Source: Streptomyces celluloflavus
GTDB lineage: Bacteria; Actinomycetota; Actinomycetes; Streptomycetales; Streptomycetaceae
Direction: 5' to 3'
Assembly: GCA_000720995.1 (NCBI GenBank)
Contig: JOEL01000005.1
Coordinates: 1 to 64,000 of the forward strand
Length of the DNA: 64,000 nt
Shown here: in pieces, positions 16,627 through 55,532 of the stretch
Numbering within the stretch: the stretch's first letter is position 1
Layout of the letters: every line of letters starts with the position of its first letter
The notes under the pieces: model-generated
The model's database searches: none
What the model saw: only the letters and a program-made list of their open reading frames with translations
Told to the model about the DNA's origin: nothing
Position numbers and translations under genes: made by a program

Positions 16627-16628
16627 CC

Positions 16629-17363: not shown

Positions 17364-17424
17364 CCACCGCCCCGGCCGGCCCGCACACCCCGGCCGGGGC
17401 TCTCGCAGGAAAGGCAACGCCCAC

Positions 17425-18685: not shown

Positions 18686-20089
<1,404 letters not shown>

Positions 20090-20100
20090 CGCCGTCCCTT

Positions 20101-20132
20101 TGGCCCAGTCTCGTACGCGGAATATGGCCCAG
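20101..20132. promoter_or_regulatory. probable MocR operator: paired direct repeats
   Basis: TGGCCCAG occurs twice in the same orientation (20101-20108 and 20125-20132), 24 bp apart, in the short gap between the divergent MocR and MFS genes. MocR proteins characteristically bind direct repeats next to the gene they control. Confidence 0.5.
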
Positions 20133-20165
20133 CCAATCGCACCAGGAAGCTTTTAGCCTGCACAC

Positions 20166-21476
20166 ATGACCACCGAGCGATCAAGACGCGGCGGCGCGGC
20201 GACAGCCCCTGCAGGGCGCACCGCCACGCCCGGGAGCGGAATACCGCGGTCACTGGTACTGCTGCTGGCGGCCGCCTGCGGGCTGATCGTCGCCAACAAC
20301 TACTACGCCCAGCCCCTGCTGCCCGACCTCCAGGACACCTTCGGCGTCTCCTCCGCCGTCATCGGCCTGTGCGTGACACTCAACCAACTCGGCTACGCCG
20401 CCGGACTAATACTCGTGGTCCCACTGGGCGACCTCGTATCGCGACGCCGGCTGATCGTGCCGATGCTCGTCGCCGACGCGGTGATCCTCGCCGCCGCCGC
20501 CGCGGCGCCGGGCGCCTGGGCCCTGATCGCGGCCCTCACCCTCGCCGGCGTCACCGGCTCGGTCATCAACATCCTGATCCCCATGACCGCCACCCTCGCC
20601 GACGACACCCAGCGCGGCCGCGTCGTGGGCACCTTGATGACCGGCCTGCTGCTGGGCGTCCTGCTGGCCCGCACCGTCGCCGGCGCCCTGGACGAACTCG
20701 CCGGCTGGCGCCTGGTCTACGCCACCGCCGCCGTCCTCATCGCCGCCCTGACCCTCATCCTGTACCGGAAACTGCCCGACCTGCCCGTACCACCCGGCTC
20801 CAGCTACCCGCGGCTGCTCGCCTCGGTGGCCTCCCTCGTGCGCACCGAGCCGTTCCTGCGCCGGCGCATGGCCATCGGCGCGGCGGGCTTCGCCGCCTTC
20901 CAACTGCTGTGGACCGCCCTGCCGTTCATGCTCGCCAAGGAGCCCTACGGCTACTCCCCGGCCATCATCGGACTCTTCGGGCTGCTGGGAGCGGCCGGGG
21001 CACTGTGCGCCCAGCCCGCCGGCCGCCTCCAGGACCGGGGCCTGGCACACACCGCGACCGGCCTGCTGCTCACCGCCATCGTGGCCTCCTGGGCACTGCT
21101 GGCCGGCCACGAGATCCTGGCACTGGTCATCGCCGGGATCCTCCTGCTCGACGTGGGCGTACAGGGCGTCCACGTCCTGAACCAGGCCCGCATCTACGGC
21201 TACCGCCCGCAGATCCGCTCACGGGTCACCACCGCCTACATGTCCGCCTACTTCCTGGGCGGTTCGGCCGGCGGCGCCCTGGCGGTGACCCTCTACCCGT
21301 GGCTGGGCTGGCCGGGCGTCTGCGCCGTCGGCGGGGCGCTCGGCCTGGCGGCCATCGCCCTGTGGGCGACCGAACGCGTACGCACCGCCCCACCGGCCGA
21401 AACCGTCCCACCGACGGAACCGGCCGAACCGGCGGGCCGGGACACCCAGGAGGGGCCCGCCCCGCACCCCGGATGA
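20166..21476 (+). CDS. MFS drug-efflux-type transporter
   Basis: A 436-residue inner-membrane transporter with 12 predicted helices. It shows the MFS loop 2-3 motif as GDLVSRRRLIVPM and a typical ITNNYYAQP-like start (LIVANNYYAQPLLPDL) seen in YnfM-type proton antiporters. The long polar C-terminal tail (PPAETVPPTEPAEPAG) is cytoplasmic and disordered. It is divergent from, and probably controlled by, the MocR regulator. Holomycin clusters include an MFS exporter, so this could serve region 1, but the intervening terminator argues for an independent unit. Confidence 0.9.
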   Translation: MTTERSRRGGAATAPAGRTATPGSGIPRSLVLLLAAACGLIVANNYYAQPLLPDLQDTFGVSSAVIGLCVTLNQLGYAAGLILVVPLGDLVSRRRLIVPMLVADAVILAAAAAAPGAWALIAALTLAGVTGSVINILIPMTATLADDTQRGRVVGTLMTGLLLGVLLARTVAGALDELAGWRLVYATAAVLIAALTLILYRKLPDLPVPPGSSYPRLLASVASLVRTEPFLRRRMAIGAAGFAAFQLLWTALPFMLAKEPYGYSPAIIGLFGLLGAAGALCAQPAGRLQDRGLAHTATGLLLTAIVASWALLAGHEILALVIAGILLLDVGVQGVHVLNQARIYGYRPQIRSRVTTAYMSAYFLGGSAGGALAVTLYPWLGWPGVCAVGGALGLAAIALWATERVRTAPPAETVPPTEPAEPAGRDTQEGPAPHPG

Positions 21477-21492
21477 CGCCCGCCCCGCCCAC

Positions 21493-21513
21493 CCGGGAGC
21501 GGAGAACTCCCGG
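21493..21513. terminator. hairpin after the MFS gene
   Basis: A perfect 7-bp stem CCGGGAG / CTCCCGG with a seven-base loop lies 16 bp after the MFS stop codon. Confidence 0.55.
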
Positions 21514-21567
21514 ACCCCCAACCGGAGTTACCGGCCACCCGCACCCCACGGACCGCCTGGATCCGAT

Positions 21568-21617
21568 CACGCCACACGCCACACGCCACACGAACACGCC
21601 ACACGAACACGCCACAC
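21568..21617. repeat. short tandem repeat upstream of the epimerase gene
   Basis: CACGCCA repeats grade into two exact copies of the 13-mer ACGAACACGCCAC. The array ends within 50 bp of the epimerase start, so copy-number change could alter its leader. Confidence 0.7.
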
Positions 21618-21663
21618 TGAACGCGGAACACTGATGACCACCGATCTCGGGAGTATCGATCTC

Positions 21664-22512
21664 ATGCGAATCTTCGTCGCCGGCGGCAGCGGGGCCATCG
21701 GCCGCCAGCTCGTGCCCATGCTGGTAGCGGACGGACACGAGGTGTGGGGCGCGTCCCGCACCACCGAGGGCGTGGCACGGCTGCGCGCCCAGGGGGCGCA
21801 GGGCCTGCTCCTCGACGTGTTCGACCGCGCCGCGGTGGCCGACGCGGTGTCCGAGGCCGGCCCGGACGTGATCATGCACCAGCTCACCTCGCTGTCCGGG
21901 GGAAGCCCCGCGGACAACGCACGCATCCGCACCGAAGGCACCCGCGCCCTCGTGGACGCCGCCCGGCGGGCCGGAGTGCGCCGGATCATCGCCCAGTCCA
22001 TCTCCTGGGCGTACGAGAGCGGCACCACACCCGCCGACGAGCGCACCCCCCTCGACACCGGCGCCCCCGAGCCCCGGGCCACCACCATCGGCGGCATCAC
22101 CGCGCTGGAGGAGGCCGTCGCCGAACTGGAGGAGCATGTCGTCCTGCGCTACGGCACCTTCTACGGACCGGGCACCTGGTACGCGCCCGGCGGCATGATG
22201 GCCGACAAGGTCGCCCAGGCGGGGCTGCCCGCCCACGACGGGGTGTCCTCGTTCGTGCACGTCCAGGACGCCGCGCGCGCCGCCCAGCTGGCGCTGCGGT
22301 GGCCCGGCGGCGCGGTCAACGTCGTCGACGACGACCCGGCCCCGGCACGCGAATGGGTGCCGGCCCTGGCCAAGGCGCTGGGCGCACCGGCCCCGCAGGC
22401 GGCGCCGGGCGGCGCGGGCTGGGAGCGCGGTGCCCGCAACGCGCGGGCACGGGAACTGGGCTGGGAGCCGGTGCACACCTCCTGGCGGACCGGCTTCTTC
22501 CAGCAGGACTGA
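21664..22512 (+). CDS. NAD-dependent epimerase/dehydratase family protein
   Basis: A 282-residue extended short-chain dehydrogenase. It begins with the Rossmann motif IFVAGGSGAIGRQLVPML and continues with a conserved QSISWAYESG, in which a Tyr lies near the usual catalytic position; the classic YxxxK is not evident. It resembles nucleotide-sugar epimerase-like proteins that are common in Streptomyces, but no sugar genes are nearby, so the substrate is unknown. The ATG at 21664 has GGGAG upstream; an ATG ten codons earlier (21634) in the same frame is an alternative. It converges with the nitrosuccinate lyase gene. Confidence 0.85.
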   Translation: MRIFVAGGSGAIGRQLVPMLVADGHEVWGASRTTEGVARLRAQGAQGLLLDVFDRAAVADAVSEAGPDVIMHQLTSLSGGSPADNARIRTEGTRALVDAARRAGVRRIIAQSISWAYESGTTPADERTPLDTGAPEPRATTIGGITALEEAVAELEEHVVLRYGTFYGPGTWYAPGGMMADKVAQAGLPAHDGVSSFVHVQDAARAAQLALRWPGGAVNVVDDDPAPAREWVPALAKALGAPAPQAAPGGAGWERGARNARARELGWEPVHTSWRTGFFQQD

Positions 22513-22600
22513 CCGGCTCGCGCACCGCGGACACCGGCGCCGGGGTGGCCGGTGTTCGCGGTGTCCGGTCGCACCGGGGCGGGCGCGTGCCCTGCGGCCG

Positions 22601-24139
22601 TCAGCGCCGCAGGGCGCGGTCGACGAGGTCGCCGGCGGCCCCGGTGTAGGCGGCCGGGTCACAGAGCCCGGCCAGCTCTCCGGCGCCGAGCACCCCCGCC
22701 AGTTCGGGCGCCGCGCCCAGGACCTCCTCCAGCGTCCGCTCCTCCTGCGCGGCGCGGGCGCAGGCACGGGCCAGCAGCTCCCGGGCCGCCGCCCTGCCCA
22801 GCAGGGGCGTCAGGGCGGCCGCCACCCGCTCCGAGACGATCTGACCGCCGGTCAGGGCGAGATTGGCGCGCATCCGCCGCGGGCGGACCGTCAGTCCCTC
22901 GGCAAGCTCGGCGGCGGTGTGCGCGGCGCCGCCCGTCAGCCGCAGGCATTCGCGCAGCGGCAGCCATTCGGCGTGCCAGGCACCGCCCGAGCGCTCGTCC
23001 TCGCCGGGCATCGTCTGCGTCAGCACCGAGGCGAGCGCCGGGACCTGGAGGGCGGCGGAGCGGATCATCGTGGCCAGGACCGGGTTGCGCTTGTGCGGCA
23101 TCGCCGAGGAGGCCCCCCGGCCGCCGGCACCCGGCTCGGCGACCTCCGCCACCTCGGTACGGGTCAGCGACTGCACATCCACCGCCATCTTGCCGAGTGC
23201 ACCGGCCGTAAAAGCCAGGGCCGCGCCCAGGTCGGCGATGGGGGTGCGCAGGGCGTGCCAGGGCAGGGTGGGCCGGGCCAGCCCGGTCTCGGCGGCGTAG
23301 GCGGCGGCGAGCCGGTCGGCATAATCCCCCGCATCCCAGCCACCCCCACCCGACCCATCCGAGTCGCCCGGCCCGCCTGCCCCGTCTGCCCTGCCCGATC
23401 CGCCCGGCCCGTCTGCCTCGTCCGATCCGCCTGGCCCGCCCGGTCCGCCGGTGCCGGCGGGGGAGTGTCCGCGGGCGTGGGCGAGATACCCGGCCAGCGT
23501 CCCGGCGGCCCCGCCCAGCGCGACGGGCAGCCCGCCCGCCAGCAGCCGCGCCAGCCGCGCGTCCGCGTCCAGCACCAGCGCCCGCCACCCCGCCGCCTTG
23601 AGCCCGAACGTGGTGGGCACGGCGTGCAGCGCCAGGGTGCGCCCGGCCATCGGGGTGTCGCGGTGCGCCGCGGCGAGCGCGCCCAACGCCGCCGCCACGC
23701 GCCCCAGATCGGCCCGGATCAGCGCCAGGGCACGGGCGGCGACCAGCATCGCACCGGTGTCGAAGATGTCCTGGCTGGTGGACCCGCGATGCACGTACCC
23801 GGCGGCGTCCGCATCCTGCCGGGCCACGCACGCGGTGAGCGCCGCCACCAGCGCCACCACGGGGTTGGCGGTCTCCCGCGCCGCGAGCGCCACCGCCCGC
23901 AGGTCCACCCGCTCCACCGACGCCGCGGCCGTGATCGCCGCGGCGGCCGCGCCCGGCACCGTGCCGAGCGCGGCCTGCGCACGCGCCAGCGCCGCCTCCG
24001 CGTCGAGCATCGCCTGAAGCCAGGCCAGGTCACCGACGGCCGCCTCCACCAAGGTCCCCGCCCGCACCGGGGACAGCAGACCGGCATCCGCCAGCGCACC
24101 GGGCACGCCCGCGGCATCACCACCGTGCAGGGCACTCAT
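22601..24139 (-). CDS. creD: nitrosuccinate lyase (CreD-like), fumarase/ASL superfamily
   Basis: A 512-residue member of the fumarase/argininosuccinate-lyase superfamily, closest in style to PcaB (3-carboxymuconate cycloisomerase) and to CreD. Visible blocks are HRGSTSQDIFDTGAM near 115, LHAVPTTFGLKAAGW near 180 and the superfamily signature SSAMPHKRNPVLATM near 310. CreD enzymes split nitrosuccinate to fumarate and nitrous acid. The call rests on coupling: its ATG overlaps the stop of the CreE-like gene by 4 bp, the normal arrangement of the aspartate-nitrosuccinate pathway. A protocatechuate PcaB role is unlikely, since no other pca gene is present. A Gly/Ser/Asp-rich insertion of about 45 residues (near 225-270) interrupts the domain. 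Confidence 0.85.
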   Translation of the reverse strand: MSALHGGDAAGVPGALADAGLLSPVRAGTLVEAAVGDLAWLQAMLDAEAALARAQAALGTVPGAAAAAITAAASVERVDLRAVALAARETANPVVALVAALTACVARQDADAAGYVHRGSTSQDIFDTGAMLVAARALALIRADLGRVAAALGALAAAHRDTPMAGRTLALHAVPTTFGLKAAGWRALVLDADARLARLLAGGLPVALGGAAGTLAGYLAHARGHSPAGTGGPGGPGGSDEADGPGGSGRADGAGGPGDSDGSGGGGWDAGDYADRLAAAYAAETGLARPTLPWHALRTPIADLGAALAFTAGALGKMAVDVQSLTRTEVAEVAEPGAGGRGASSAMPHKRNPVLATMIRSAALQVPALASVLTQTMPGEDERSGGAWHAEWLPLRECLRLTGGAAHTAAELAEGLTVRPRRMRANLALTGGQIVSERVAAALTPLLGRAAARELLARACARAAQEERTLEEVLGAAPELAGVLGAGELAGLCDPAAYTGAAGDLVDRALRR

Positions 24140-26148
24140 GAACTCACCTCGCTCAGACCGGTGTCCAGGCGCACACCGCCGGACACGGGGGACAGCGCCA
24201 GCACCGCACGGGCGATGGCATCGGAGTCGCCGAGCGTCACCGAGTCCACCCCGGGCCGTATCCCGGCGGCGGTGATCCAGTGGACGGCCTCGGTGGGCAC
24301 GCCGTACGCGAAACGCCGCCCGCTCGCCCGCCCGTCCGCGTCCAGCAGCCGGTAGGGCCGCGCACCAACCGCCAGACCACCCGTCTCATACCCCGCGCCG
24401 TCGGCCGTGGGAATGCGGTACGGGGCACACCCGCCGGCGGCCAGCAGCCGACGCAGCAGCGGGTCGGTGGTACGGCGCACGTCCGGCTCCGGCAGCCGCG
24501 CCTCGATCAGCACATCCGCCGCCACCTGCGGGCCCGGCACCGACGAAGCGGCGACGAAGGCACGCCGGGCACGGTCCACCCGCACCCACGTCCCCGGGCC
24601 CAGCACCTCCAGGACACCCGCCTCGATCAGCGCGGCCATCTCCTCGATCCGCGAGACCGGCGGCCCGATCGACAAGAAAGCGTTCAACGGCGTGTACCAG
24701 CTCTGGAGATGCTCACGGTAGGAACGCCCCTCCAGACCGCCGTGGTCGACGACCAGCCGGATCTCGTTGCGCAGATCGCGCAGCGCGTCCAGCGCCGCCT
24801 TCAGCGGGCCGCTGACATTGCCCGCACGGGCGGCGGCGACATCCGCCCGCAGATGCCCCAGCAGCCAAGCCCGGAACGCCCCGCGGTCGGCGAAGCCCCC
24901 CGCCGGGCCGGGGCGGGCCAGCCGCTCCCAGTCCCAGCGCTCCCCGGGCGCGATGGCCCAGGCATCCAGCAGCCGGTCGCGCGCGGCGGCATCCGGCGCG
25001 TCCAAGAACTCCTCGGCGAACCGCCCGCACCACACGCCGCGCCCGCGGGCGGCCAGCAGCGCCGCGTAGTAGACGCACGACACCTCCGCGTCGATCAGCG
25101 GCCACAGATCGGTATCGAAGCGCAGCCGCTCACCCGCCTGGGCGCGCTTGCGCAACTGCGCGATGACCTCCGGGGTCAGCAACCGCGGCAGGTGACGGCC
25201 GTGCGCGCCCTTCTCGTTCTCCCCGCGCGCGTGGTACGGGATACCGCGCCGCGACCCGGCCAGCAGCCGCGGCTCACGGCCCGAGGCCCGGTAGACCACC
25301 CGCCCGCCACTACGGGTGAAGACGCCGCCGCGGCCGAGCGTGAACAGCGCCAGATGGTCGAAGAAGTTCAGGCCCAGACCGCGCAGCAGCACCGTCCGCT
25401 CCGGCCCGATCCACGACAGGTCCACGTCCGCGGGGTTGGCCGGCGGCACATAGCCAAGGCCCAACTCCCGCGCCGCCGAACCCAGTTCGGCCTCACCCGG
25501 GGCGAGCACCGCATCCAGATGCCCCTGGGCGAGCACCACCGCGTCCAGAGCGTCGAGCCGCGTCCCGTCGTCGAGGACCAGATGCTGCCCACCGCGCCGG
25601 TCCTCATCGAGAGCGACGGCGCGCCGCCGGTGCGCGACCACCCGCACACCACCGGGCGCGCCGGCCACGATCCGCCGGTAGGCGTCCTCCAGATAGTGGC
25701 CGTAAAAGGCACGGGTGGGGTAGTCATCGGGGGACAGCCGCCGGGCCTCGGCACGCACCGCCGCAGCCACACCGCCTGCCCCGCCGTCCGTCTCCAGGGC
25801 GGCCGCCCACTCGTACAGGCTGGGGCCCGGCTCGACCGGGCCGTCGATGCGGACCCCGGCGTCGGTGTAGACGGTGATCTGCGAGGCGACCGTGTTCATC
25901 AGCAGATGCCGGGACTGGGCGGTGCGCCACACCCGTCCGGCGCCGGGCGGGTACGGGTCGATGACATGCACGGTGAGCGGCCGGCCGGCGTGCTCCGCAC
26001 GGGCGTTGGCACACAGCCGCTCCAGCACGGACAGTCCCCGGGGCCCCGCCCCGACGACGGCGACCCGAAGCCGCCCGCACCCCGCACGGCCACTCCCGGG
26101 CACACCGGCCGGGATGCGCCGGGCATCTGTTGACTGCGACAACGGCAT
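24136..26148 (-). CDS. creE: nitrosuccinate synthase (CreE-like flavin monooxygenase)
   Basis: A 670-residue FAD/NAD(P)-binding protein of the pfam13454 type. The N-terminal fold reads VAVVGAGPRGLSVLERL, followed by PPGAGRVWRTAQSRHLLMNT and ITVYTDAGV with GPSLYEWA. This layout is that of CreE/FzmM-type enzymes, which oxidise the amine of L-aspartate stepwise to nitrosuccinate. Its product would feed the downstream, 4-bp-overlapping CreD-like lyase, giving nitrous acid. GAAGG precedes the ATG. Length and order match the family. The main alternative is another pfam13454 hydroxylase of unknown substrate, but the lyase partner makes that less likely. Confidence 0.85.
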   Translation of the reverse strand: MPLSQSTDARRIPAGVPGSGRAGCGRLRVAVVGAGPRGLSVLERLCANARAEHAGRPLTVHVIDPYPPGAGRVWRTAQSRHLLMNTVASQITVYTDAGVRIDGPVEPGPSLYEWAAALETDGGAGGVAAAVRAEARRLSPDDYPTRAFYGHYLEDAYRRIVAGAPGGVRVVAHRRRAVALDEDRRGGQHLVLDDGTRLDALDAVVLAQGHLDAVLAPGEAELGSAARELGLGYVPPANPADVDLSWIGPERTVLLRGLGLNFFDHLALFTLGRGGVFTRSGGRVVYRASGREPRLLAGSRRGIPYHARGENEKGAHGRHLPRLLTPEVIAQLRKRAQAGERLRFDTDLWPLIDAEVSCVYYAALLAARGRGVWCGRFAEEFLDAPDAAARDRLLDAWAIAPGERWDWERLARPGPAGGFADRGAFRAWLLGHLRADVAAARAGNVSGPLKAALDALRDLRNEIRLVVDHGGLEGRSYREHLQSWYTPLNAFLSIGPPVSRIEEMAALIEAGVLEVLGPGTWVRVDRARRAFVAASSVPGPQVAADVLIEARLPEPDVRRTTDPLLRRLLAAGGCAPYRIPTADGAGYETGGLAVGARPYRLLDADGRASGRRFAYGVPTEAVHWITAAGIRPGVDSVTLGDSDAIARAVLALSPVSGGVRLDTGLSEVSS

Positions 26149-26267
26149 GGAAGGTCACCTTCGGTATGTGGACGGGCGGCGGCCGCGCGAGCGGCCGGCC
26201 CGGTCCGGCCGGCCGCCGCTGCCGCCGCCCGGCCCGGGGTCGGAGCGGGATGCTGTGCGGACCGGGG

Positions 26268-27818
26268 TCAGAGCGGGATGCTGTGCGGGGAGCGGAAGAA
26301 GCCGTGCGGGTCGTACCGGCGCTTCACCGCGGAGAGCCGGGGAAGATTCTGCCCGTAGTAGGCATCCGCCCAGTCGGGCAGGTCGGGGTCGGGATAGTTG
26401 ACGTAAGTGCGGCCGTTGGAGAAGGGGTCCATGGCGGCGAAACCGCCGCCGACCCAGCCGAGCGCGGCGGACAGCTCCTCCGGCTCGGGCTGCGGACTGC
26501 TCAGACCGACGGTGTAGACGGCGAAGAATTCGGCGTCGCGGTGCACATAGGCGGTGTCCTGCGCGCCGGGCGCGTTCGCGTTCTTGCCCAGGGACAGCAG
26601 CCCCAGCCACCGGTACTGGCCCGCCCGGCGCTCGGCGTCGAACGCGCCGAGCATGGCGGCCAGACCCGAGGCGGGCACCGGCCGGCCGAACATGCGGCTG
26701 CGGTGGCGCACCCAGGTGGTGCGCGGCAGCAGCGCCTCGGGGTTGCTGCCGGTCAGATGGCACTGCGCGGTGGAGGAGTCCGTGCAGCCGAACAGCCGCA
26801 TCATGGCGTCCCGGTAGGGGCGTTCCTGGATGACGCGGGTGGTGGGCGGGGTACCGATCGCGGCGGTCAGCTCGGCCACCAGCGCCTCCAGCTCCGACTG
26901 CTCGCCGAAGTGGGCGCCGCCGACGATGACGGTCGGCTCGGCGCCGGGCCTGGCATCGTTGAGGAGGATCCCGGCCCGCGGCGCCAGGTCGGCGGGGGCG
27001 GCGGCCGCCCACTCCTGCCAGTGCGCAAGGACCCGGTCGGCCAGCGCCCAGGGCCAGGTCAGATCGAGGGTCACCACCCGCCGCTCGCGGGTCGGGGCGA
27101 TCTCGAAGTCGGTGACCACACCGAAATTACCGCCGCCGCCCCCGCGCAGCGCCCACAGCAGATCACGGTGGTGCTCGCGCGAGGCGGTGACGATACGGCC
27201 GTCGGCGAGCACGACCTGGGCTGCGACCAGCCGGTCGCTGGCGGGCCCGTACTTGCGGAAATGCCAGCCCATACCGCCGCCGGTGACGAACCCGCCCGGC
27301 GCGACCGTCGGACAGAACCCGCCCGGCACACTCAGCCCCAGCGGCGCGAGCGCGGTGACGACATCGACGGCCTGCGCCGCCGGACCCAGGTGCACCGTGG
27401 ACGCCGAGGGCCGCACCCGGTCCATCCGCGACAGGTCGATCACCAGCCCCTGGCCGGTCGACCAGCCGGTGAAACTGTGCCCGCCGCTGCGCACGGCGGT
27501 GGGCAGATCGTGGTCCTGGGCGAACAGCAGCGCCCCGCGCACATCACGGGCGCTCTCGCAGCGCACGACGGCCTGCGGGCGGACCGTGTCGAACTGGGCA
27601 CTGGCCAGCTGCTTGGCCCGCTCGTAGCCGGCGTCGCCCGGCAGCACCACCTCACCTCGGACCACGGCCCGCAACTGCTCCCAGGGGATACCACCGGACC
27701 GCACCCGGCCCGCGGCCCCGGCAGGCCCGGTGGCGCCCGCGGCCCCGGTGGCCAGCAGGCCCGGCGCGGCCAGACCGGTGGCCGCCGCCGCGGTCAGCAG
27801 CGCTCTTCTCTTGATCAT
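26268..27818 (-). CDS. secreted FAD-linked (BBE-type) oxidase with Tat signal
   Basis: A 516-residue oxidase. The N-terminus is [20 protein letters not shown], a twin-arginine signal, so it is exported folded. The FAD_binding_4 domain has [13 protein letters not shown] (the His that binds FAD) and [19 protein letters not shown] (Cys for a second covalent bond); the C-terminal BBE segment ends with [15 protein letters not shown] and [18 protein letters not shown]. Such enzymes oxidise alcohols, amines or late natural-product intermediates. Its start overlaps the stop of the upstream ligase gene by 4 bp. Secretion suggests a late, extracytoplasmic oxidation of the region 3 product. Confidence 0.9.
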
Positions 27819-29509
27819 CCGTTTCCCCTCGTGTCCACGGCGCGCGCGGTGTGCGCCTGACGCAGCACCCCGCGCTGCACCTTCCCCGTGCTGCTGCACG
27901 GGAGTTCGGCGACGAATTCCACGATCCGCGGGTACTTGTACGGCGCGATCTCCGCCTTCACCCGGTCCTGGATCTCCCGCGCCAGCCGGTCGGCGGCCGC
28001 CGCCGAGGCGGGCGCGTGCCCTTCGGCGGGGACGACCACCGCCTTGACCACACTGCCGCGCTCGGCATCGGGCACCCCCACCACCGCACAGCCGGCGACC
28101 GACGGATGACGCAGCACGGCCTGTTCGACCTCGGGCGCGGCGACGTTGTAGCCCGCGGTCACGATCATGTCGTCGGCGCGGGCCTGATACCAGAAGTAGC
28201 CGTCACCGTCGCGGACGTAGATGTCGCCGGTGATGTTCCAGCCGTCCTGGACATAGTCACGCTGCCGGTCATCGGCCAGATAGCGGCAGCCGGTCGGCCC
28301 CCGGACGGCCAGCCGCCCCGCCACCCCGTCGGGCACCGGCCGCCCGCCGCCGTCGACGACACGGGCCGCGAACCCCGGCACCGGCCTGCCCGTCGCACCG
28401 GGCCGGATCTCCTCATCGGCCGACGCGATGAACACATGCAGCAACTCCGTCGCACCGATGCCGTCGATGACCCGCTGCCCGGTGGCGGCCTCGAAGGCCC
28501 GCCAGGTGTCCGCGGGCAGCGTCTCGCCCGCCGAGACACAGCGCCGCAGCGAGGACAGGTCATACCCCCCGATCTCGCGCAGCGCGGCCCGGTAGGCGGT
28601 GGGGGCGGTGAACAAGACCGTCGCCCGGTGCCGGCCGACCGCGGCGAACAGCTCACCCGGCGCGGCCTTCTCCAGCAGCAGCGACGCCGCCCCGGCCCGC
28701 AGCGGGAAGACCAGCAGCCCGCCCAGACCGAAGGTGAAGGCGAGCGGCGGACTACCGGTGAACAGATCCTCCGGCACCGGACGCAGCACCCGCGCGGCGA
28801 ACGTGTCCGCGATGGCCAGCACATCCCGGTGGAAATGCATCGTCGCCTTGGGCTCACCACTGGTACCCGAAGTGAACGCGATCAGCGCGACATCATCGGC
28901 CGCGGTCGCCACCGCCCCGAAACCACCGGACTTGACGGCCGCCCGCCGCGCCAGCTCCGAGCCCTCACCCCCGTAGCCGACCACCCGCAGCCCGGCCACC
29001 TGGGCCCGCAGCAACTCGTCGGTATAGCGCTCCTCGCACAGCGCCAGATCGACACGGGCCTTGCCGGCCACCACCCGCAGCTCACCGGCGCGCAGCAGCG
29101 GCATCGTGGTCACCACCACCGCACCGGCCTTCAGCGCCGCCAGCCAACAGGCCGCCAGCCACGGCGCGTTGGGACCGCGCAGCAGCACACGGTTGCCCGG
29201 CACCAGCCCGAAATCCTCCACCAGCACCCGCGCGATCCGGTCCACCCGCTCCCGCAGCCCGGCATACGTCCACATCCGCCCCGCCGCGTCATACAGCGCC
29301 GGCCGCGCCCCGCCGAACCGGCCGATGGTGGCGTCCAGCAACTCCTCGGCGCAGTTCAGCCGCGCGGGGTAGCGCAGTTCGGGCAGACCGAAGACGAACT
29401 CGGGCCACTGGGACACGGGTGGCAGATGGTCCCGGGCGAAGGTGTCCCGGTGCGCGGACGGGGACAGCGGCGCCCCGCCCGCAGGGGTGGCGGCACTCAA
29501 CGGCTCCAT
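27815..29509 (-). CDS. 2-aminobenzoate-CoA ligase family adenylating enzyme
   Basis: A 564-residue ANL-superfamily ligase. The core motif is [20 protein letters not shown] followed by [20 protein letters not shown], the form typical of benzoate and 2-aminobenzoate-CoA ligases. Later come [30 protein letters not shown] and the A10-type [15 protein letters not shown] with its Lys. It would activate anthranilate or a related aryl acid as the AMP ester and CoA thioester. GGAGGAG precedes the ATG. It sits in the same strand group as the nitrous-acid genes, which suggests that its aryl acid is the partner for diazotisation or further elaboration. Confidence 0.88.
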
Positions 29510-29791
29510 AACTCCTCCACGGCCAGGCGCACACGGACACGGCCCGTCCGGGCACCGCACACCCGGCGGCCCCGCCCGCCCACGAGAACGGTCCCGTACA
29601 CGGCGCGGGCGCGGCCCGGTCCCACCATGGTGGCGGTGGCGGTGGCGTGGCCCAGGGGGACGGGCCGGCGGCGGGCGGCATCCCGGCCTCCACCAGACTC
29701 GCCTGGCGAAACCGCCGACGAAACGGCCGGGGCAGCGGACATGGCCGGGGCCGGGGGAGTGGCGGGCCCGCCCGGCGCCGCCCCGCGCCGC
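29510..29791. other. intergenic gap between the two ligase genes
   Basis: About 280 bp with no credible reading frame, carrier protein or hairpin seen. The gap leaves room for an internal promoter, so the CreM-like gene and the four genes after it may be separate transcripts. Confidence 0.4.
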
Positions 29792-31345
29792 TCAGTCATG
29801 TCCGCCGTCCTCGGCCAGCAGCCGCACCAACTCCGCCCGCCGCACCTTCCAGGTGGCGGTACGCGGTACCCGGTCGAAGGGCAGCTGCCGCACCGCCTCC
29901 ATGGCGGGCAGCCCCGCCACCGCCCGCTGCCACCGCACCGGATCCAGCGGCGCGTCATCGCGGGTGCAGGCCACCGGCACCGGCCGGCCGCCGCCCCACC
30001 CCACGATGACGATCTCCCGCAGCTCCGGCAGCCTGGCCATCAGCGTGTCCTCGACACGCAGACTGCTGTCGACGGCCTCGACCTGGTCGACCCCCCGGTC
30101 CAGCAGATGCAACCGCCCCAGCGCGTCCTTGAACCCCAGATCGCCCATGGCCCACCAGCCGTCGTGCAACTGCCGGCGAAAACGCTCGTCCTCCCCGAGA
30201 TAGGTCAGCGCCCGGGTACGGCTCCTGACCTCGATATGACCGACCGTGCCCGACCGCACCGGCCGGCCCCCGTCATCGACGATCCGCATCCGCACGATGC
30301 CCGGCAGCGGCCAGCCCACACTGCGCCCGCCCCCCTCGGCCGCACCGCGCGCCGTGACCCAGCCGCCCGCCACCGGCCCGGTCTCCGACTGGCCGTAGAG
30401 CTGGAAGAACTTGGGGGACCGGCGCTCGGAGGCACCCAGCAGCGTCCGCACGGTGCGCGGGTGCAGCGCGTCGAAGGTCGCGTTGTAGTAGCGGACATTG
30501 GCCAGCGGGCCCCCCGCGGCCCCGGCCAGCACCTCCCAGTCGACGAACGTGTTCGGCTGCGTCTCGACGACACCCGGCCGGTGCCGGGCGAACAGCGGAC
30601 CGATGACGGCCGGATCCGCGTCCACCGCCACCAGCAGCGGATTGCCGTACGCCAGACCGAGACTGAGCGCACTGTAGAACCGGGCGTGCACAAAGCTCAC
30701 GCACAGCGCCACCGGCTCCCGCCGCCAGGTCCGCGACGCGACGACCTGCTGAAGACGCAGCCGCTGCCACAGCGCGTCCGGCGTCTGCACCACCAGCTTT
30801 GGCACCCCCGTGGTGCCCGAGGTGTGGCTGATGAACGCCGGCTCGTCCGGCCGCGCCCGGTACGTGCCCGCCAGCGACGCCACCGCCTGCGCGCCCAGCA
30901 CCTGGGCCCCCGCGACCGCGGGACCCGCGCTCAGCAGCACCCGGCGGGCCGCCGAGGTATCGAGACCACGGGCTTCGAGATGCGGGGTGTCGATGAGCAG
31001 CCAGGGCCGCTCCAGCCGCTCCAGCAGCCGCGCCGCGGTCTGTCCGTCCAGCGTCGGCGAGAGCAGCGCGGGGACGGCGCCCACCCGCTGCACCGCGGCG
31101 GCCAGCAGCGCGATATCGAAGTTGTTCGTCTTGTAGAGCGCCACCCGGTCGCCGTGGCGCACCCCCGCCGACACCAGCCTGCCCGCGAGCTCGCGGACCA
31201 GACGCGCCAGCGCGCCGACCGTCCAGTGCGTCCCGCCCTCGGGCGCCACCTGGAGCGGTGTGTCCAGCACGACGGGCGCCGAGGCATGCGTCCGGGCCGC
31301 CTTGTCGAACATCACACCGATGTAGAACCCCTTGCCGCCGCTCAC
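29792..31345 (-). CDS. divergent AMP-forming ligase, candidate diazotising enzyme (CreM-like)
   Basis: A 517-residue ANL-family enzyme. It has [20 protein letters not shown] near 165, [16 protein letters not shown] near 310, [19 protein letters not shown] and the end motif [17 protein letters not shown], which keeps the A10 lysine but replaces the usual Gly of TGK by Trp. In cremeomycin (CreM) and avenalumic acid (AvaA6) biosynthesis an ANL-type enzyme uses ATP and nitrite to diazotise an aromatic amine. A second, unusual ligase next to CreE/CreD genes is the expected candidate for that step here. It could instead be a plain acyl-CoA ligase. GTG start; the ribosome site is weak. Confidence 0.75.
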
Positions 31346-31447
31346 GTCGCCAACACCCCTTTCCGGTCAGCACCACTGGGCACCGAGTTTTTTCCGCCGA
31401 CGGGGGCGGCCGGGGATTTCTGGCAGCTTGCTGACACGCTCCGGCCC

Positions 31448-31462
31448 CCACCTGACAGGTGG
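31448..31462. promoter_or_regulatory. perfect palindrome in the ligase/paaA divergent promoter region
   Basis: CCACCTGACAGGTGG is a perfect inverted repeat around one central base. It lies in the 366-bp gap between the divergent CreM-like ligase and paaA genes, 250 bp before paaA and 100 bp before the ligase. It is a good operator candidate for a repressor shared by both units. Confidence 0.6.
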
Positions 31463-31711
31463 TTGCCAGCAGAGCGCCACCGCGGGAAGCGGCCTGGCTA
31501 CGTTCGTCACCACACGGCCGAAGACCGCACCCGCAACACCCCGGCCAAGGCCACGCCCCTGGCCGCGGCCGCGGCCGCGGACCGCACCGTGACCGGCGGC
31601 CGTGACCCACGGCCGCACCCGGCCACCGCGATCCACGCCCACGGCCGGCGGTCACACCAGGCGGCACGAACCGGGCACCGCGGCACAGCAGCGACAGAAC
31701 GGAGAGCACCG

Positions 31712-32875
31712 GTGGACAAGGACGAGCACCCGCTCGCACCGCCCGGCGCGGGCGAGCTGCTGGCCGAGGTGGAGGCGGCACACACCGCACTGCGCACCGC
31801 ACACCGCACCACACCGCCCACCGCCACCGGCACCGGCGCCGCGGGAACACCCCACGGCCACGGCACCGCACCCGACGAAGCCGGCCTGCGGGCCCACTTC
31901 GAGAAGGTCATCGCCGACGACCGGAAAATCGAACCCCGCGACTGGATGCCCGACGCCTACCGACGCACCCTCGTGAGGCAGATCGCCCAGCACGCCCACT
32001 CCGAGATCGTCGGCATGCAGCCGGAAGCCAACTGGCTCACCCGCGCCCCCTCCCTGGCCCGCAAAACCATCCTCCTGGCCAAGGTCCAGGACGAGGCCGG
32101 CCACGGCCTCTACCTCTACGCGGCCGCCGAAACCCTCGGCGTCCACCGCGCCGACCTCCTCGACGCCCTGCACGAAGGCCGCCAGCGCTACCTCTCCTTC
32201 ATCAACTACCCGACCCTGACCTGGGCCGACACCGGAGCCCTGGCCTGGCTCACGGACGGCGCCGCCATCGTCAACCAGGTCCCGCTGTGCCGCTCCTCCT
32301 ACGGCCCCTACGCCCGCGCGATGGTCCGCGTCTGCAAGGAGGAGTCCTTCCACCACCGCCAGGGCTTCGACTCCCTGTGGGCCCTGACCCACGGCACCCC
32401 CGCACAGCGGCAGATGGCCCAGGAAGCGGTCGACCGCTGGTGGTACCCGGCCCTGGCCATGTTCGGCCCGCCGCACCACGCCTCCGTCCACTCCGAGCAG
32501 TCGATGGCCTGGCGCATCAAACGCTTCACCAACGACGAACTGCGCCAGCGCTTCGTCGACATCTGCGTCCCGCAGGCCGAACTCCTGGGCCTCACCCCGC
32601 CCGACGCCCACCTGCGCTGGAACGACGACCGCGGCCACTACGACTTCACCCCGCCCGACTTCGACGAACTCACCCGCGTCATCAAGGGCGACGGCCCCTG
32701 CAACCGCCAGCGCCTGGCCCACCGCCGCCGCGCCCACGACGAAGGCGCCTGGGTCCGCGAGGCCGCCGCCGCCCACGCCGCCAAACACCGCACCCCCCAC
32801 CACGGCCCGCACCCGGCGGCCACCACCGCCCCGGCCACGGTGGACGAGGCCGCGGCGGACGAGGCCGCGGCATGA
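31712..32875 (+). CDS. paaA: phenylacetyl-CoA epoxidase catalytic subunit PaaA
   Basis: A 387-residue ferritin-like di-iron subunit. It contains [29 protein letters not shown], the iron-ligand block [13 protein letters not shown] and the second block [13 protein letters not shown], as in known PaaA. The complex PaaABCE turns phenylacetyl-CoA into its ring 1,2-epoxide. The N-terminus carries about 60 extra low-complexity residues before the conserved part. GTG at 31712 has GGAG seven bases upstream. It is the first of five overlapping genes paaABCDE. Confidence 0.95.
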
Positions 32876-33180
32876 CCGGCCCGCCCGCACCCGACGCACG
32901 CCGCGACTGGCCCCTGTGGGAGGTCTTCGTCCGCGCCCGCCGCGGCCTGGCCCACACCCACGCCGGCAGCCTGCACGCCCCCGACGCCCACCTGGCCCTG
33001 CACCACGCCCGCGACCTGTACACCCGGCGCGGCGAAGGCGTCTCCCTGTGGGTGGTGCCCGCCGCCGCCATCACCGCCACCAGCCCCGACGAGAAAGACC
33101 CCTTCTTCGACCCCGCCGCCGACAAGCCCTACCGCCACCCCGCCTTCTTCGCCCTGCCCGAAGGAGCCGAACACCTGTGA
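32872..33180 (+). CDS. paaB: phenylacetyl-CoA epoxidase subunit PaaB
   Basis: A 102-residue subunit with the family core [20 protein letters not shown], then [16 protein letters not shown] and LWVVPAAAI. PaaB bridges the oxygenase subcomplex and the reductase. Its ATG overlaps the paaA stop by 4 bp, so translation is coupled. Size matches known PaaB proteins. Confidence 0.95.
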
Positions 33181-33947
33181 CGGCACCCCGCACCACCCCC
33201 GCCACCGCACCCGCCTACCCCCTGCGCCTGGGCGACGACGCCCTGATCGCCGCCCAGCGCCTGCTCCAGTGGTGCGCCCGCGCCCCCCAGCTCGAAGAGG
33301 ACGTGGCCCTCGCCAACATCTGCCTCGACCTGCTCGGCCAGGCCCGCGCCCTGCTCACCCACGCCGGCGAACTGGAGGGCCGGGGCCGCGACGAGGACAC
33401 CCTGGCCTTCCTGCGCACCGAGCAGGAGTTCACCCACGTCCAGCTCGTCGAACTGGACAACGGCGACTTCGCCGTCTCGATGGCCAAACTCCTCTTCTTC
33501 ACCACCTACCAGGAGCTGCTGTACGGGCGACTGGCCGCCTCCACCGACCCGGCCCTGGCCGCCCTCGCCGCCAAAGCCGTCAAGGAGAGCGCCTACCACA
33601 CCGGCCACGCCGCCGCCTGGACGGTCCGCCTCGGCGACGGCACCGAGGAATCCCACCACCGCATGCAGCACGCCGTCGACACCATCTGGCCCTACACCCA
33701 CGCCCTGTTCACCCCCGACGCCCTCGACCGGGCCGCCGCGGCGAACGGCACCGGCATCGATCCCGCCACCCTGCGCCCCCTGTGGCACGAGCGCATCACC
33801 CGCACCCTCAAAGAGGCCACCCTCACCGTCCCCGACGACGGCTGGGCACCCGGCGGCGGCCGCCAGGGCATCCACACCGAGGCATTCGGCTACCTGCTGA
33901 CCGAAATGCAGGCCCTGCACCGCGCCCACCCCGGAGCCCGCTGGTGA
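33177..33947 (+). CDS. paaC: phenylacetyl-CoA epoxidase structural subunit PaaC
   Basis: A 256-residue ferritin-like subunit with LGDDALIAAQRLLQWCARAP, the helix LGQARALLTHAGE, EQEFTHVQLVELDNGDFA and the YHTGHAAAWTVRLGDG block. PaaC pairs with PaaA in the oxygenase core but has degenerate metal ligands in the family. The GTG start overlaps the paaB stop by 4 bp; the first 15 residues are a non-conserved extension. Confidence 0.95.
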   Translation: MTAPRTTPATAPAYPLRLGDDALIAAQRLLQWCARAPQLEEDVALANICLDLLGQARALLTHAGELEGRGRDEDTLAFLRTEQEFTHVQLVELDNGDFAVSMAKLLFFTTYQELLYGRLAASTDPALAALAAKAVKESAYHTGHAAAWTVRLGDGTEESHHRMQHAVDTIWPYTHALFTPDALDRAAAANGTGIDPATLRPLWHERITRTLKEATLTVPDDGWAPGGGRQGIHTEAFGYLLTEMQALHRAHPGARW

Positions 33948-34477
33948 CCGCCCCCACCGGCCCCACCGCGCCCACGGGCACCGACGGGCGGGACGCGGCC
34001 CGGCTGCGGGAAGCCCTCGCCACCGTCCACGACCCGGAGATCCGCGTCCTGACCATCGAGGAACTGGGCATCCTGCGCCAGGTGGACATCACCCCCGACG
34101 GCCGGGCCCACATCACCATCACCCCCACCTACCTGGGCTGCCCCGCCATGGACACCATCCGCGCCGACATCCGCGCCGCGGCGCGGGCGGCCGGCTACCC
34201 CCAGGCGACGATCGACACCACCTGGTCACCACCGTGGACCACCCGCTGGATCGGCGCCGCCGCCCGCGACAAGCTCCGCGCGGCGGGCATCGCACCCCCC
34301 GCCCCCGCCCCGCCCCCCGGCGCCCGCCTCCTCCCCCTGGCCGCCACCGCACCCCGCTGCCCCCTGTGCGGCGCCGCCGACACCACCGAACTGACCCGCT
34401 TCGGCTCCACCGCCTGCAAAGCCCTGTGGCGCTGCGGGACCTGCGGCGAACCCTTCGACCACGTCAAGGAGCACTGA
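33944..34477 (+). CDS. paaD: PaaD, Fe-S maturation factor of the phenylacetyl-CoA epoxidase
   Basis: A 177-residue protein. The N-terminal MIP18/DUF59 domain has ATVHDPEIRVLTIEELGIL and TYLGCPAMDTI with the conserved Cys. The C-terminal part is a zinc-ribbon-like CPLCG...CGTCG pair. PaaD is needed for assembly of the active oxygenase or its iron-sulfur reductase. GTG start overlapping the paaC stop by 4 bp. Confidence 0.93.
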   Translation: MTAPTGPTAPTGTDGRDAARLREALATVHDPEIRVLTIEELGILRQVDITPDGRAHITITPTYLGCPAMDTIRADIRAAARAAGYPQATIDTTWSPPWTTRWIGAAARDKLRAAGIAPPAPAPPPGARLLPLAATAPRCPLCGAADTTELTRFGSTACKALWRCGTCGEPFDHVKEH

Positions 34478-35601
34478 TGACCGCCCCCACCGCCACCACC
34501 GGGGCGCCCGCCCGCCACGACTTCCACGCCCTGACGGTCACCGCAGCCACCCCGGCCGCCGACGACCACAGCGCGGTCGCCGTCACCTTCCACGTCCCCG
34601 CCCCGCTGCGCGCAACCTTCGCCTTCGCCCCCGGCCAGTACGTGACACTGCGCGCGCACCGCGAGGGCGCCGAGGTCCGCCGCGCCTACTCCCTGTGCTC
34701 CACCCCCCGCCAGCTCGACGCCGACGGCACCCTGCGGATCGGCGTACGCACCGTCGACGGCGGACGCCTGTCCCCCTACCTGGCCCGCGAACTCGCCCCG
34801 GGCGACACCCTGGACGTCCTCGCCCCCCAAGGGCACTTCACCACCCCGCTGGACCCCGGCCACCACCGCCGCCACTACGCGGCACTGGCGGCGGGCTCCG
34901 GCATCACCCCCGTACTGTCCCTGGCCGCCACCGCCCTGGCCACCGAACCCACCAGCACCTTCACCGTGGTGTACGCCAACCGCAGCGCGGCCTCGGCCAT
35001 GTTCACCGAGGAACTCGCCGACCTCAAGGACCGCTACGGCCGGCGCCTGCACCTGCTGCGGCTCTTCTCCCGCGAGACCCACCACATCGGCCTGCCCCAC
35101 CAGCGCCTCGACGCCCCCACCCTGCGCACCCTCCTGGCCGGACCACTGCCCGCCGCCGTCGTCGACACCTGGTTCCTGTGCGGCCCCCAGGCCATGGTCG
35201 GCGGCGCCCGCGACGTCCTGGCCGAACAGGGCGTGGCCGCCGCCACCATCCACGCCGAGCTCTTCCACACCCAGCCCGACACCCCGCCCGCACCCGCCGA
35301 CGGCACCCGCGCCCCGCACCCGGGCGCCGAGCTGACCCTGCGCCACGGCGGACACACCAGCACCGTCCCCGTCGAGCCGGGCCAGACCCTCCTCGACGCG
35401 GGCCTCGCCCACCGCCCCGAGCTGCCGTTCTCCTGCCTGAACGGGGTGTGCGCGACCTGCCGGGCACGCGTGGTCGGCGGCCGCGCCGAGATGGCCAGCA
35501 ACTGGACCCTGACCGAGGAAGAGATCGCCGACAACTACATCCTCACCTGCCAGGCATCCCCCCTCACCCCGACCGTGGACCTCGACTACGACGTCGTGTG
35601 A
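34477..35601 (+). CDS. paaE: PaaE, ferredoxin reductase of the phenylacetyl-CoA epoxidase
   Basis: A 374-residue reductase. It has an FAD-binding barrel with EVRRAYSLCS, an NAD(P)-binding part with AAGSGITPVLSLA and FLCGPQAM, and a C-terminal plant-type 2Fe-2S domain with SCLNGVCATC and the fourth Cys in ILTCQA. It passes electrons from NADPH to the PaaA di-iron centre. TGATG overlap with paaD. No paaK, paaG or paaZ follows, so downstream steps must be encoded elsewhere. Confidence 0.95.
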   Translation: MTAPTATTGAPARHDFHALTVTAATPAADDHSAVAVTFHVPAPLRATFAFAPGQYVTLRAHREGAEVRRAYSLCSTPRQLDADGTLRIGVRTVDGGRLSPYLARELAPGDTLDVLAPQGHFTTPLDPGHHRRHYAALAAGSGITPVLSLAATALATEPTSTFTVVYANRSAASAMFTEELADLKDRYGRRLHLLRLFSRETHHIGLPHQRLDAPTLRTLLAGPLPAAVVDTWFLCGPQAMVGGARDVLAEQGVAAATIHAELFHTQPDTPPAPADGTRAPHPGAELTLRHGGHTSTVPVEPGQTLLDAGLAHRPELPFSCLNGVCATCRARVVGGRAEMASNWTLTEEEIADNYILTCQASPLTPTVDLDYDVV

Positions 35602-35634
35602 CCCACCCCGCCGGGCCTGTATGAGAGGGCGCGC

Positions 35635-38707: not shown

Positions 38708-39473
38708 GGTGGTCGGCTCCGATCGGGTCTGCACAAGGTGCGCCTTAAATCCAGCGGGACTATAACCGGGCGCCGCCATCCCCGGACTTCCCGTGCACCG
38801 ACCGCACTTGAGGCCCGCCGGCCCCTCTCTCGGGCGGTGGCCGGCGGCGTGCTTGTGGCGGCGGGCGCCCCGGTGGGAAGGTCGTCCGGATCCCGGCGCC
38901 GGCACCCCCGCGCGCCCGCCCCGCCGTGCGCCGCCGCACAACAACGGACACGTCCGATATCAGGTGCGGCCGCAGACCACCGAGCACGGCGCGAGCCGTG
39001 CGGGCGGCCGCCGGCGACGCCCGCGCCGCCCCTCCGCGCGCCGGGCGGAGGAGTTCCCCGGCCCGCGTCATGGGGTCCCCGGACCGGGTCAGCGGCGTCC
39101 CTTTTCCCCGGGATACGGCCGCCATCCAGCCATTCGGCAGGCCATTTCGCCGGGCGGGCGCACCGGTGCCGGCCGTGGCCGTCAGGGCGGTGGCGGGGTG
39201 CGGCGCGACCGACGGGCCGGGCGAACGGGCCCGGAGCGCCGCAACAGGCAGCGGGTCAACAGCCCGGCGGGGGCCGGTCACTGTGCCACCACACCCTCAT
39301 AAAGAAACGGAAAGCTACGGAAAGGAACAGAAAGAAATCGGTCAGAGGCTCTCTTGGCGGGTGACCATGGCCGTGATGGAGTTGATCCGCGCAGCCGCAA
39401 GAACGCCGGTCGGTATGTCGGCGACCGGCGCATGTCCGGCGACCTGAACCCCACCGAAGGGACGCACCCGCAC
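38708..39473. other. divergent intergenic region, lipoprotein and GNAT genes
   Basis: About 0.77 kb between divergent starts. No gene recognised. Bases 39296-39345 (AAAGAAACGGAAAGC and similar) are an A/G-rich island, the likeliest promoter zone for the GNAT gene. Confidence 0.4.

Positions 39474-54062: not shown

Positions 54063-55532
<1,470 letters not shown>

Follow-up and report, generated by a model that had tools for sequence, protein, structure and literature searches.

Why would a Streptomyces keep genes for making nitrous acid in the middle of what looks like an antibiotic cluster of another kind? The question is raised by the first 64,000 nucleotides of contig JOEL01000005.1 of Streptomyces celluloflavus (assembly GCA_000720995.1, forward strand), the whole stretch analysed here and called the window. 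In this window, a sequence-only reading had picked out a five-gene block at 22601-31345, with homologs of the nitrous-acid enzymes CreD and CreE, as a candidate undescribed diazo or N-N pathway acting on an aminobenzoate. We find that the block belongs to a longer unit of about 14 genes, which appears to be equipped to make nitrous acid and build a diazo group on an anthranilate derivative. Our preferred reading, to which we give a probability of about 0.6, is that these genes form a portable and conserved biosynthetic cassette that turns anthranilate into an aryl diazonium or diazo species.

A cassette wider than its first outline

The unit runs from 18686 to 36696, about 18 kb. Beyond the five genes it takes in paaABCDE, an AvaA7-like reductase and the genes of two regulators and one exporter, so the original outline was too narrow: neither paaABCDE, nor the reductase, nor the surrounding dithiolopyrrolone genes had been mentioned. 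The genes are:

18686-20089, minus strand: MocR/PdxR-type regulator at the cassette edge (NF052282, 363 bits, cut-off 320).
20166-21476, plus strand: MFS exporter, here MFS1 (Pfam MFS_1; 59-69% in three other cassettes).
21664-22512, plus strand: SDR-type reductase, a distant homolog of AvaA7, the 3-diazoavenalumate denitrifying reductase (NF058621).
22601-24139, minus strand: nitrosuccinate lyase, CreD (NF052556; PDB 5xny).
24136-26148, minus strand: aspartate N-monooxygenase/nitrosuccinate synthase, CreE (Pfam NAD_binding_9; PDB 8cp2).
26268-27818, minus strand: BBE-type FAD oxidase with a twin-arginine start and both covalent-FAD motifs (FAD_binding_4 and BBE).
27815-29509, minus strand: anthranilate-CoA-ligase-like enzyme (best PDB match 4wv3).
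29792-31345, minus strand: CreM-like ANL enzyme, proposed arylamine diazotase (cassette clade 100/100; remodelled A8 and A10 motifs).
31712-32875, plus strand: paaA, catalytic diiron subunit with an altered substrate pocket (TIGR02156, 463 bits, cut-off 280; clade 100/99).
32872-33180, plus strand: paaB (Pfam PaaB).
33177-33947, plus strand: paaC (Pfam PaaA_PaaC).
33944-34477, plus strand: paaD (Pfam Zn_ribbon_PaaD and FeS_assembly_P).
34477-35601, plus strand: paaE reductase (Fer2 and FAD/NAD domains; TIGR02160, 371 bits, below the cut-off of 421).
35635-36459, minus strand, with a possible open reading frame start at 36696: helix-turn-helix (HTH) regulator at the other cassette edge (homologs at 36-45% in L176/L177 and 38% in NBC_00388).

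As first read, the nitrous-acid genes share one strand with the anthranilate-type ligase, the CreM-like enzyme and the oxidase with an export signal: all five lie on the minus strand between 22601 and 31345. The CreE/CreD and ligase/BBE pairs each overlap by 4 bp, consistent with an operon; the gaps are 282 bp between the CreM-like and ligase genes and 119 bp between the BBE and CreE genes.

CreD scores 751 bits with NF052556, the NCBIfam model for nitrosuccinate lyase (equivalog cut-off 650), and 588 bits with the CreD structure 5xny. Its residues at about 222-270 form a low-complexity insert rich in Gly, Ser and Asp, which splits the 5xny match into 10-221 and 271-512. CreE matches 8cp2, an entry titled just 'FAD-binding protein', at 669 bits, and is 59-68% identical to CreE-like proteins that adjoin CreD in other loci. 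Assigned by family, a CreD at equivalog level and a coupled CreE homolog would together encode the aspartate-nitrosuccinate (ANS) pathway to nitrous acid.

The BBE oxidase probably starts at the methionine at 27818 (MIKRRALL..., with its twin arginine) rather than at the GTG at 27899, and a twin-arginine stretch also opens the homologs in S. alanosinicus and Kutzneria. Read from this start, the enzyme carries a predicted export signal. The His of SGGH and the Cys of GFC, which we take to be the two flavin-link residues, are kept in three aligned rows, and the oxidase is 59-71% identical across the other cassettes. Both covalent-FAD motifs and the Tat-type start that had been read into this protein are therefore there.

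The same cassette in three other actinobacteria

Is this gene set an accident of one genome? In fact, it recurs in Streptomyces alanosinicus JCM 4714, Kutzneria buriramensis DSM 45791 and Streptomyces sp. NBC_00388, across two families and with gene order mostly kept, which argues that it is not a product of chance. A contig scan with the CreM-like protein, which relies on exact 8-residue words and finds close relatives only, yielded 23 pattern matches, of which two were confirmed as relatives, S. alanosinicus (68%) and K. buriramensis (65%). The NBC_00388 protein (68%) came from a tblastn search of a plasmid collection and lies on the 88-kb linear plasmid NZ_CP107949.1. Common to the first two are the MFS exporter, the AvaA7-like SDR, paaABCDE, the ligase, the BBE oxidase and the HTH regulator; the NBC_00388 proteins, the HTH regulator aside, are 59-84% identical to those of the window. 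The SDR is present in all four cassettes (66-71% identical to the window copy) and CreE/CreD in three of them. Homologs of the MocR/PdxR-type regulator occur in K. buriramensis (59%) and NBC_00388 (69%), with no match within the fetched S. alanosinicus stretches.

Each of the three other cassettes also encodes a fused anthranilate synthase, a hotdog thioesterase and a DAHP synthase of class II. The anthranilate synthase of S. alanosinicus scores 849 bits with TIGR01815 (cut-off 739), all three NBC_00388 copies are annotated as such, and the Kutzneria anthranilate synthase is 68% identical to that of NBC_00388. With the DAHP synthase model (cut-off 615), the Kutzneria protein scores 702 bits and that of S. 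alanosinicus 596, below the cut-off. This conservation together with a dedicated anthranilate synthase indicates anthranilate as the substrate.

Across the four genomes the cassette has three kinds of surroundings. The genes that follow it in S. alanosinicus and NBC_00388 are common to both (acyl-CoA carboxylase, MaoC, FabG, ketosynthase (KS) and others, at 65-92% agreement), and no such group was found in the Kutzneria stretches. In the window, as judged from gene content and order, a dithiolopyrrolone cluster of the holomycin/thiolutin type encloses it, with the acyl-CoA dehydrogenase gene on one side and the acyltransferase gene on the other.

An oxygenase with a rebuilt ring pocket

What is a phenylacetyl-CoA epoxidase doing next to nitrous-acid genes? 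The genome holds a second full paaABCDE operon on contig C17. In a tree of 33 PaaA proteins (three from cassettes, the NBC_00388 copy being left out; 29 of the 37 matches in other genomes), the cassette copies form a clade supported at 100/99, apart from the C17 copy and the 29 others. A catabolic coincidence was considered and rejected, because the genome has its separate full paa operon and the cassette PaaA proteins form a conserved clade of their own.

The cassette complex resembles the phenylacetyl-CoA epoxidase in having all five subunits, all six iron ligands and E49/K68. It is unlike it in the separate clade of its PaaA and in an altered ring pocket: S105L, I107F, F108I, V125T, Q159H and M193A are found in all four cassette PaaA proteins, NBC_00388 included, and in none of the 30 others. 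At position 108, Ile stands in four of four cassette copies and Phe in 30 of 30 others. In this numbering the published iron ligands, E49, K68, Lys103 and Phe108 land on matching residues, and Leu286 lands on Trp. Phe108 sets the orientation of the phenylacetyl ring above the iron centre (PMC4498308). With the iron ligands kept and Phe108 and other residues replaced, the enzyme reads as a conserved oxygenase with a rebuilt ring pocket, and nothing else in the sequence speaks as strongly for a new substrate. Aminobenzoyl-CoA is the candidate to which the neighbouring ligase points.

The anthranilate-type ligase

Among solved structures the ligase matches the anthranilate-CoA ligase 4wv3 best (274 bits), followed by 2v7b (benzoate, 237 bits). 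Its score with TIGR02262, the benzoate-CoA ligase family, is 320 bits, under the cut-off of 375, and a genus-wide homolog (L078) also falls short at 338. Strong matches to the ligase are found in 261 of 295 sampled genomes of the genus, and a family of proteins of about 760 residues lies near these genus-wide homologs in all six fetched loci. The L078 member, the sole one tested, scores 1181 bits as a salicylyl-CoA 5-hydroxylase/oxidoreductase (cut-off 1078). Such a neighbour is expected of an aminobenzoyl-CoA catabolic set and, because the neighbour of its genus-wide relatives fits this role, the cassette ligase likely acts on anthranilate. The cassette ligase is not simply the genus-wide homolog itself: that idea was rejected because the three cassette copies in the tree branch outside a clade of 19 genus-wide homologs (support 95/97).

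A remodelled CreM-like enzyme

The enzyme that would have to form the diazo group is the CreM-like protein. The first reading had called it a divergent CreM-like ligase, and it is close to neither CreM nor AvaA6: the protein reaches 91 bits with the AvaA6 diazotase model NF058622 (cut-off 975; L177 98 bits, L176 73 bits), and it is 29% identical to the cremeomycin-type CreM of the sampled genome G287, a protein that is named from its cluster context and adjoins a dithiolopyrrolone cluster. In the tree, the cassette proteins form one clade (100/100) with a p-aminobenzoate (PABA)-type class nearest, apart from 25 proteins of other loci. Close kinship to AvaA6 or CreM was rejected on these scores, identity and tree.

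The family alignment has 42 members, 38 from fetched loci plus those of the window, L176, L177 and L217. A three-residue gap in the A8 loop and the absence of the A10 Gly are common to all 42, whereas seven of seven aligned CoA and aryl ligases retain both the A8 length and the A10 Gly. We infer that this remodelling reflects a loss of thioester formation, which would be consistent with a diazotase. The A5-motif Glu (LYGQSETG) and the A10 Lys (TATWKVRR) are present, the Lys in all 42 members. With its ANL fold, this Glu and this Lys, the enzyme would by sequence count among the ATP-dependent arylamine diazotases in the broad sense. The Trp of TATWKVRR, which the first reading had pointed out, was rejected as a marker: it is present here, but the position holds W in 16 of the 42 aligned members, T in 13, M in 8, A in 4 and L in 1.

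For 18 of the 25 family members that belong to neither the cassette nor the PABA class, CreE and/or CreD lie in the same fetched stretch, most of these stretches having been chosen because CreE or BBE was there. Another 37 genomes have a CreM-like match at 51-55%. The 12 PABA-type loci examined among them (L058-L069) have one common gene order, for example at 5487-13298 of L058: PabAB-like, aryl ligase, CreM-like, FAD monooxygenase and PabC-like, with names given by eye from translations and one locus read protein by protein.

Two further settings of CreM-like genes were seen. The linear plasmid pSMg1-1 of Streptomyces sp. Mg1 (L232/L234) has a PABA-type CreM-like gene along with homologs of BBE (57%), CreE (59%) and CreD (68%), as well as a fatty acyl-AMP ligase, desaturases and an acyl carrier protein. 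In L132, L133 and L135 the CreM-like gene occurs with BBE, prenyltransferase-like and terpene-cyclase-like proteins, joined in L132 and L135 by CreE/CreD; these loci resemble what we take to be an azamerone/furaquinocin-type meroterpenoid cluster.

The host dithiolopyrrolone cluster

What surrounds the cassette? The genes on either side are:

11-4870, minus strand: non-ribosomal peptide synthetase (NRPS) with condensation (C) and adenylation (A) domains, reaching the contig start; its C domain resembles the C-domain proteins of other dithiolopyrrolone loci.
5563-8256, plus strand: LuxR-family regulator (53-66% to six of seven dithiolopyrrolone loci).
10105-10704, minus strand: PPC-DC-like decarboxylase, HlmF type (TIGR00521, 83 bits, below the cut-off of 220; 63-68% in seven of seven loci).
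11624-15013, plus strand: C-A-PCP NRPS, HlmE type (cyclisation-type C domain judged by eye).
15010-16626, plus strand: GMC oxidoreductase, HlmD type (68-71% in 7 of 294 other sampled genomes).
16629-17363, plus strand: type II thioesterase, HlmC type.
17425-18567, plus strand: acyl-CoA dehydrogenase, HlmB type (77-81% in seven of seven loci).
39432-40394, plus strand: GNAT N-acyltransferase, HlmA type (55% to the gene directly after the G287 acyl-CoA dehydrogenase).
40616-41980, minus strand: MFS transporter (72% to G287).
42486-43085, plus strand: XRE-cupin regulator (76-78% in seven of seven loci).
43572-45047, plus strand: DAO-type flavoprotein (70-74% in six of seven loci).

The name dithiolopyrrolone is based on this gene set and its order (PMC3826145), not on direct comparison with hlm sequences, and the neighbours were partly named by eye. 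The seven fetched loci all have the core five genes (PPC-DC, NRPS, GMC, thioesterase and acyl-CoA dehydrogenase, here at 10105-18567) and the XRE-cupin gene, and six have the DAO gene; the acyltransferase and a close homolog of the MFS transporter occur in one, G287. There the acyltransferase directly follows the dehydrogenase, the same order as in the hol gene listing (PMC3826145), while in the window the cassette and a beta-propeller-like gene separate the two. Like the holomycin and thiolutin clusters (hlm/hom/hol), the host has these five core genes and an acyltransferase gene; unlike them, it carries the 18-kb cassette between dehydrogenase and acyltransferase. Dithiol oxidase and globin genes have no match in the window, which starts at a contig end. 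Since the first NRPS gene runs to that end, the host cluster may continue on another contig. HlmD-type genes at 49-51% occur in three more genomes (G014, G116, G126), outside the seven-locus comparison.

G287 is a second case of both pathway types adjoining. Its dithiolopyrrolone-type cluster has as neighbour a cremeomycin-like one (L165-L167; CreM-type, CreE, CreD and 3-amino-4-hydroxybenzoic acid (3,4-AHBA)-type genes, named by eye), with CreE about 17 kb after the acyl-CoA dehydrogenase. Farther along the window, at 50898-61616 on the minus strand, are an ATP-grasp protein, an RraA-like protein, an HpaB-type monooxygenase and another NAD_binding_9 protein, together with SahH-, aminotransferase- and flavin-reductase-like proteins (by eye).

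A proposed route and its rivals

How could these enzymes work together? We propose that the ligase at 27815-29509 would convert anthranilate, for the window copy from the housekeeping supply, into anthraniloyl-CoA. The specialised PaaABCE(D) would then oxidise its ring, most likely to a hydroxyanthraniloyl-CoA with the hydroxyl para (C5) or ortho (C3) to the amine. CreE and CreD, as their families indicate, would turn aspartate into nitrous acid, and the CreM-like enzyme would activate nitrite with ATP and diazotise the aminophenol to a quinone-diazide-type product. Thereafter N2 might be lost or the diazonium might couple. In the two weakest steps, the AvaA7-like reductase may swap N2 for hydride or work on some related diazo intermediate, while the BBE oxidase, once exported, may act on the product outside the membrane. 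Because the cassette lies inside a dithiolopyrrolone cluster, its product could be attached to a holothin-type compound or be formed in parallel with one.

We expect the C5 or C3 hydroxyl because the diazotisation substrates of the ava (avenalumic acid), tasikamide and cremeomycin pathways bear an ortho or para hydroxyl; the tasikamide enzyme Aha11 does not convert related compounds without a para-hydroxy group (PMC11705231). Against this expectation, SpiA7 works without a hydroxyl (PMC11705231). Diazotisation of anthranilate or a derivative, the core of the first reading, is partly supported, by the nitrous-acid pathway, a candidate diazotase and the indicated substrate; that the diazo group then stays in place is less clear, since the AvaA7-like SDR may remove N2 again.

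Several observations weigh against the route. The CreM-like protein is distant from both the AvaA6 model and the cremeomycin-type CreM, and the latter has neither the A8 gap nor the loss of the A10 Gly, so diazotases do not all share the motif change. No CreD/CreE match lies in the 20-kb stretch of any of the 12 PABA-type loci, the nearest CreM relatives outside the cassette. The Kutzneria cassette, likewise, has no CreE/CreD match in the 57 kb around it (contig C9), its CreE matches being on C24 and C5, and would need nitrous acid from elsewhere. In the window itself, tblastn finds no match at E 1e-3 to the thioesterase, anthranilate synthase or DAHP synthase of the other cassettes; the genome also lacks a close copy of the fused anthranilate synthase, its best match being 42% over part of the length. 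PaaABCE is inhibited by benzoyl-CoA and does not use it (PMC4498308), so the proposed change of substrate is large. Finally, Aha11 does not take free 2-amino-5-hydroxybenzoic acid (PMC11705231), a poor fit with thioesterase release of the acid before diazotisation.

Some of these points would also suit a CreM-like enzyme that is an aminobenzoate ligase, to CoA or a carrier protein, with nitrous acid used in another step. It is a member of the ANL superfamily and scores higher with generic ligase models than with that for AvaA6, and the 12 PABA-type loci examined do without CreD/CreE in the 20 kb read. Yet the A8 and A10 motifs are remodelled throughout the family, and a separate ligase that retains them adjoins in the cassettes and PABA-type loci. 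CreE and/or CreD accompany most of the other family members, with the selection of stretches noted above, and the Mg1 PABA-type cluster has CreE/CreD about 15 kb off on the same plasmid. The unchanged motifs of the cremeomycin-type CreM led us to raise the weight of a plain ligase and to lower that of our preferred reading slightly, and we still consider a plain ligase improbable.

If the diazotase is accepted, what becomes of the diazo group? It may be a hidden step in a deamination, N2 being replaced by hydride as in ava/cma (cma, p-coumaric acid) to leave a (hydroxy)benzoate without an N-N bond. The SDR occurs in every cassette, the copies of the window (215 bits) and of Kutzneria (217 bits) match AvaA7 best among the NCBIfam models, and AvaA7 chemistry is described (PMC10777205); both scores are short of the cut-off of 400, though, and no KS/chain length factor, AvaH/AvaI homolog or 3,4-AHBA synthase pair was found among the scanned window proteins, a subset of the open reading frames. 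We regard this ending as possible and somewhat doubtful. A true hybrid, in which the GNAT acyltransferase or a tasikamide-like coupling would link the aryl-CoA or diazonium to the dithiolopyrrolone core, seems to us rather unlikely. In its favour, dithiolopyrrolone-type genes flank the cassette on both sides, it splits HlmB- and HlmA-type genes that are adjacent in G287 and consecutive in the hol listing (PMC3826145), and the thioesterase of the three other cassettes, which would remove the aryl-CoA, is missing here. Benzoyl-CoA served as donor to N-methylpyrrothine in cell extract (PMC3826145), and diazonium coupling of pathways is described for the tasikamides (PMC11705231). Against it, nested clusters need not share a product, the acyltransferase follows the dehydrogenase in just one of seven related loci (the other six have no match), and the S. 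alanosinicus and K. buriramensis cassettes come without a dithiolopyrrolone match (HlmD-type, E 1e-60, a search with no positive control of its own).

A plain insertion comes close to an even chance: two independent clusters, one nested in the other, the cassette making its own small diazo or aryl metabolite and the host an ordinary holomycin/thiolutin-type dithiolopyrrolone. The cassette has other neighbours in three actinobacteria, once on the 88-kb linear plasmid, and its GC content, 74.5%, is above that of the hlm-like stretches on either side (70.8% and 72.7%). Left unexplained is why the nested copy misses exactly the thioesterase and the anthranilate supply genes. The boldest form of our preferred reading, in which a retuned phenylacetyl-CoA epoxidase oxidises anthraniloyl-CoA on the way to a stable quinone diazide and the mobile module is plugged into partner pathways, here giving an aryl-diazo or N-N-linked dithiolopyrrolone hybrid, we hold to be unlikely.

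Comparison with known systems

Has such a cassette been described? The closest candidate is the tasikamide aha pathway, which makes an alkyl 5-hydroxyanthranilate that Aha11 diazotises, Aha1/Aha2 being the nitrous-acid enzymes (PMC11705231, PMC13266690, PMC11429834). As proposed here, an ANL enzyme uses nitrous acid on a hydroxyanthranilate derivative, and the aha diazonium couples two pathways. Compared by description only, aha could be the same kind of cassette and is the likeliest place for prior knowledge. The ava/cma pathways share the ANS genes, an ANL diazotase and an NAD(P)H reductase for the diazo intermediate; they differ in starting from 3,4-AHBA and using a type II polyketide synthase, where the cassette has an anthranilate-type CoA ligase and PaaABCDE and misses the AvaA6 and AvaA7 cut-offs. 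The penzonemycin cluster (pzm) likewise has CreD/CreE/CreM homologs, a 3-hydroxyanthranilate core and a DAHP synthase; its 3-hydroxyanthranilic acid is proposed to arise through anthranilate synthase, isochorismatase and dehydrogenase, whereas the other cassettes combine anthranilate synthase with PaaABCDE (PMC9323291).

Our searches of the open-licence literature turned up nothing that joins paaABCDE or anthraniloyl-CoA with diazo chemistry, nor phenylacetyl-CoA epoxidase with a natural product of anthranilate type. A dithiolopyrrolone with diazo, nitrous acid or CreD was not found among the top-ranked papers, which does not establish its absence. Nor did a known cluster with this set turn up among the papers listed, with the aha cluster as the soft spot.

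What, then, does the locus tell us? It brings two well-known enzyme systems, the ANS pathway and the PaaABCDE ring oxygenase, together in one conserved cassette, so that the idea of a diiron aryl-CoA oxygenase working on an aminobenzoyl-CoA can be put to a concrete test. Should the proposed route be true, the cassette would be a ready-made module for aryl diazonium production in cells. Its place within an antibiotic cluster illustrates a way in which hybrid metabolites could arise from modules of this sort.

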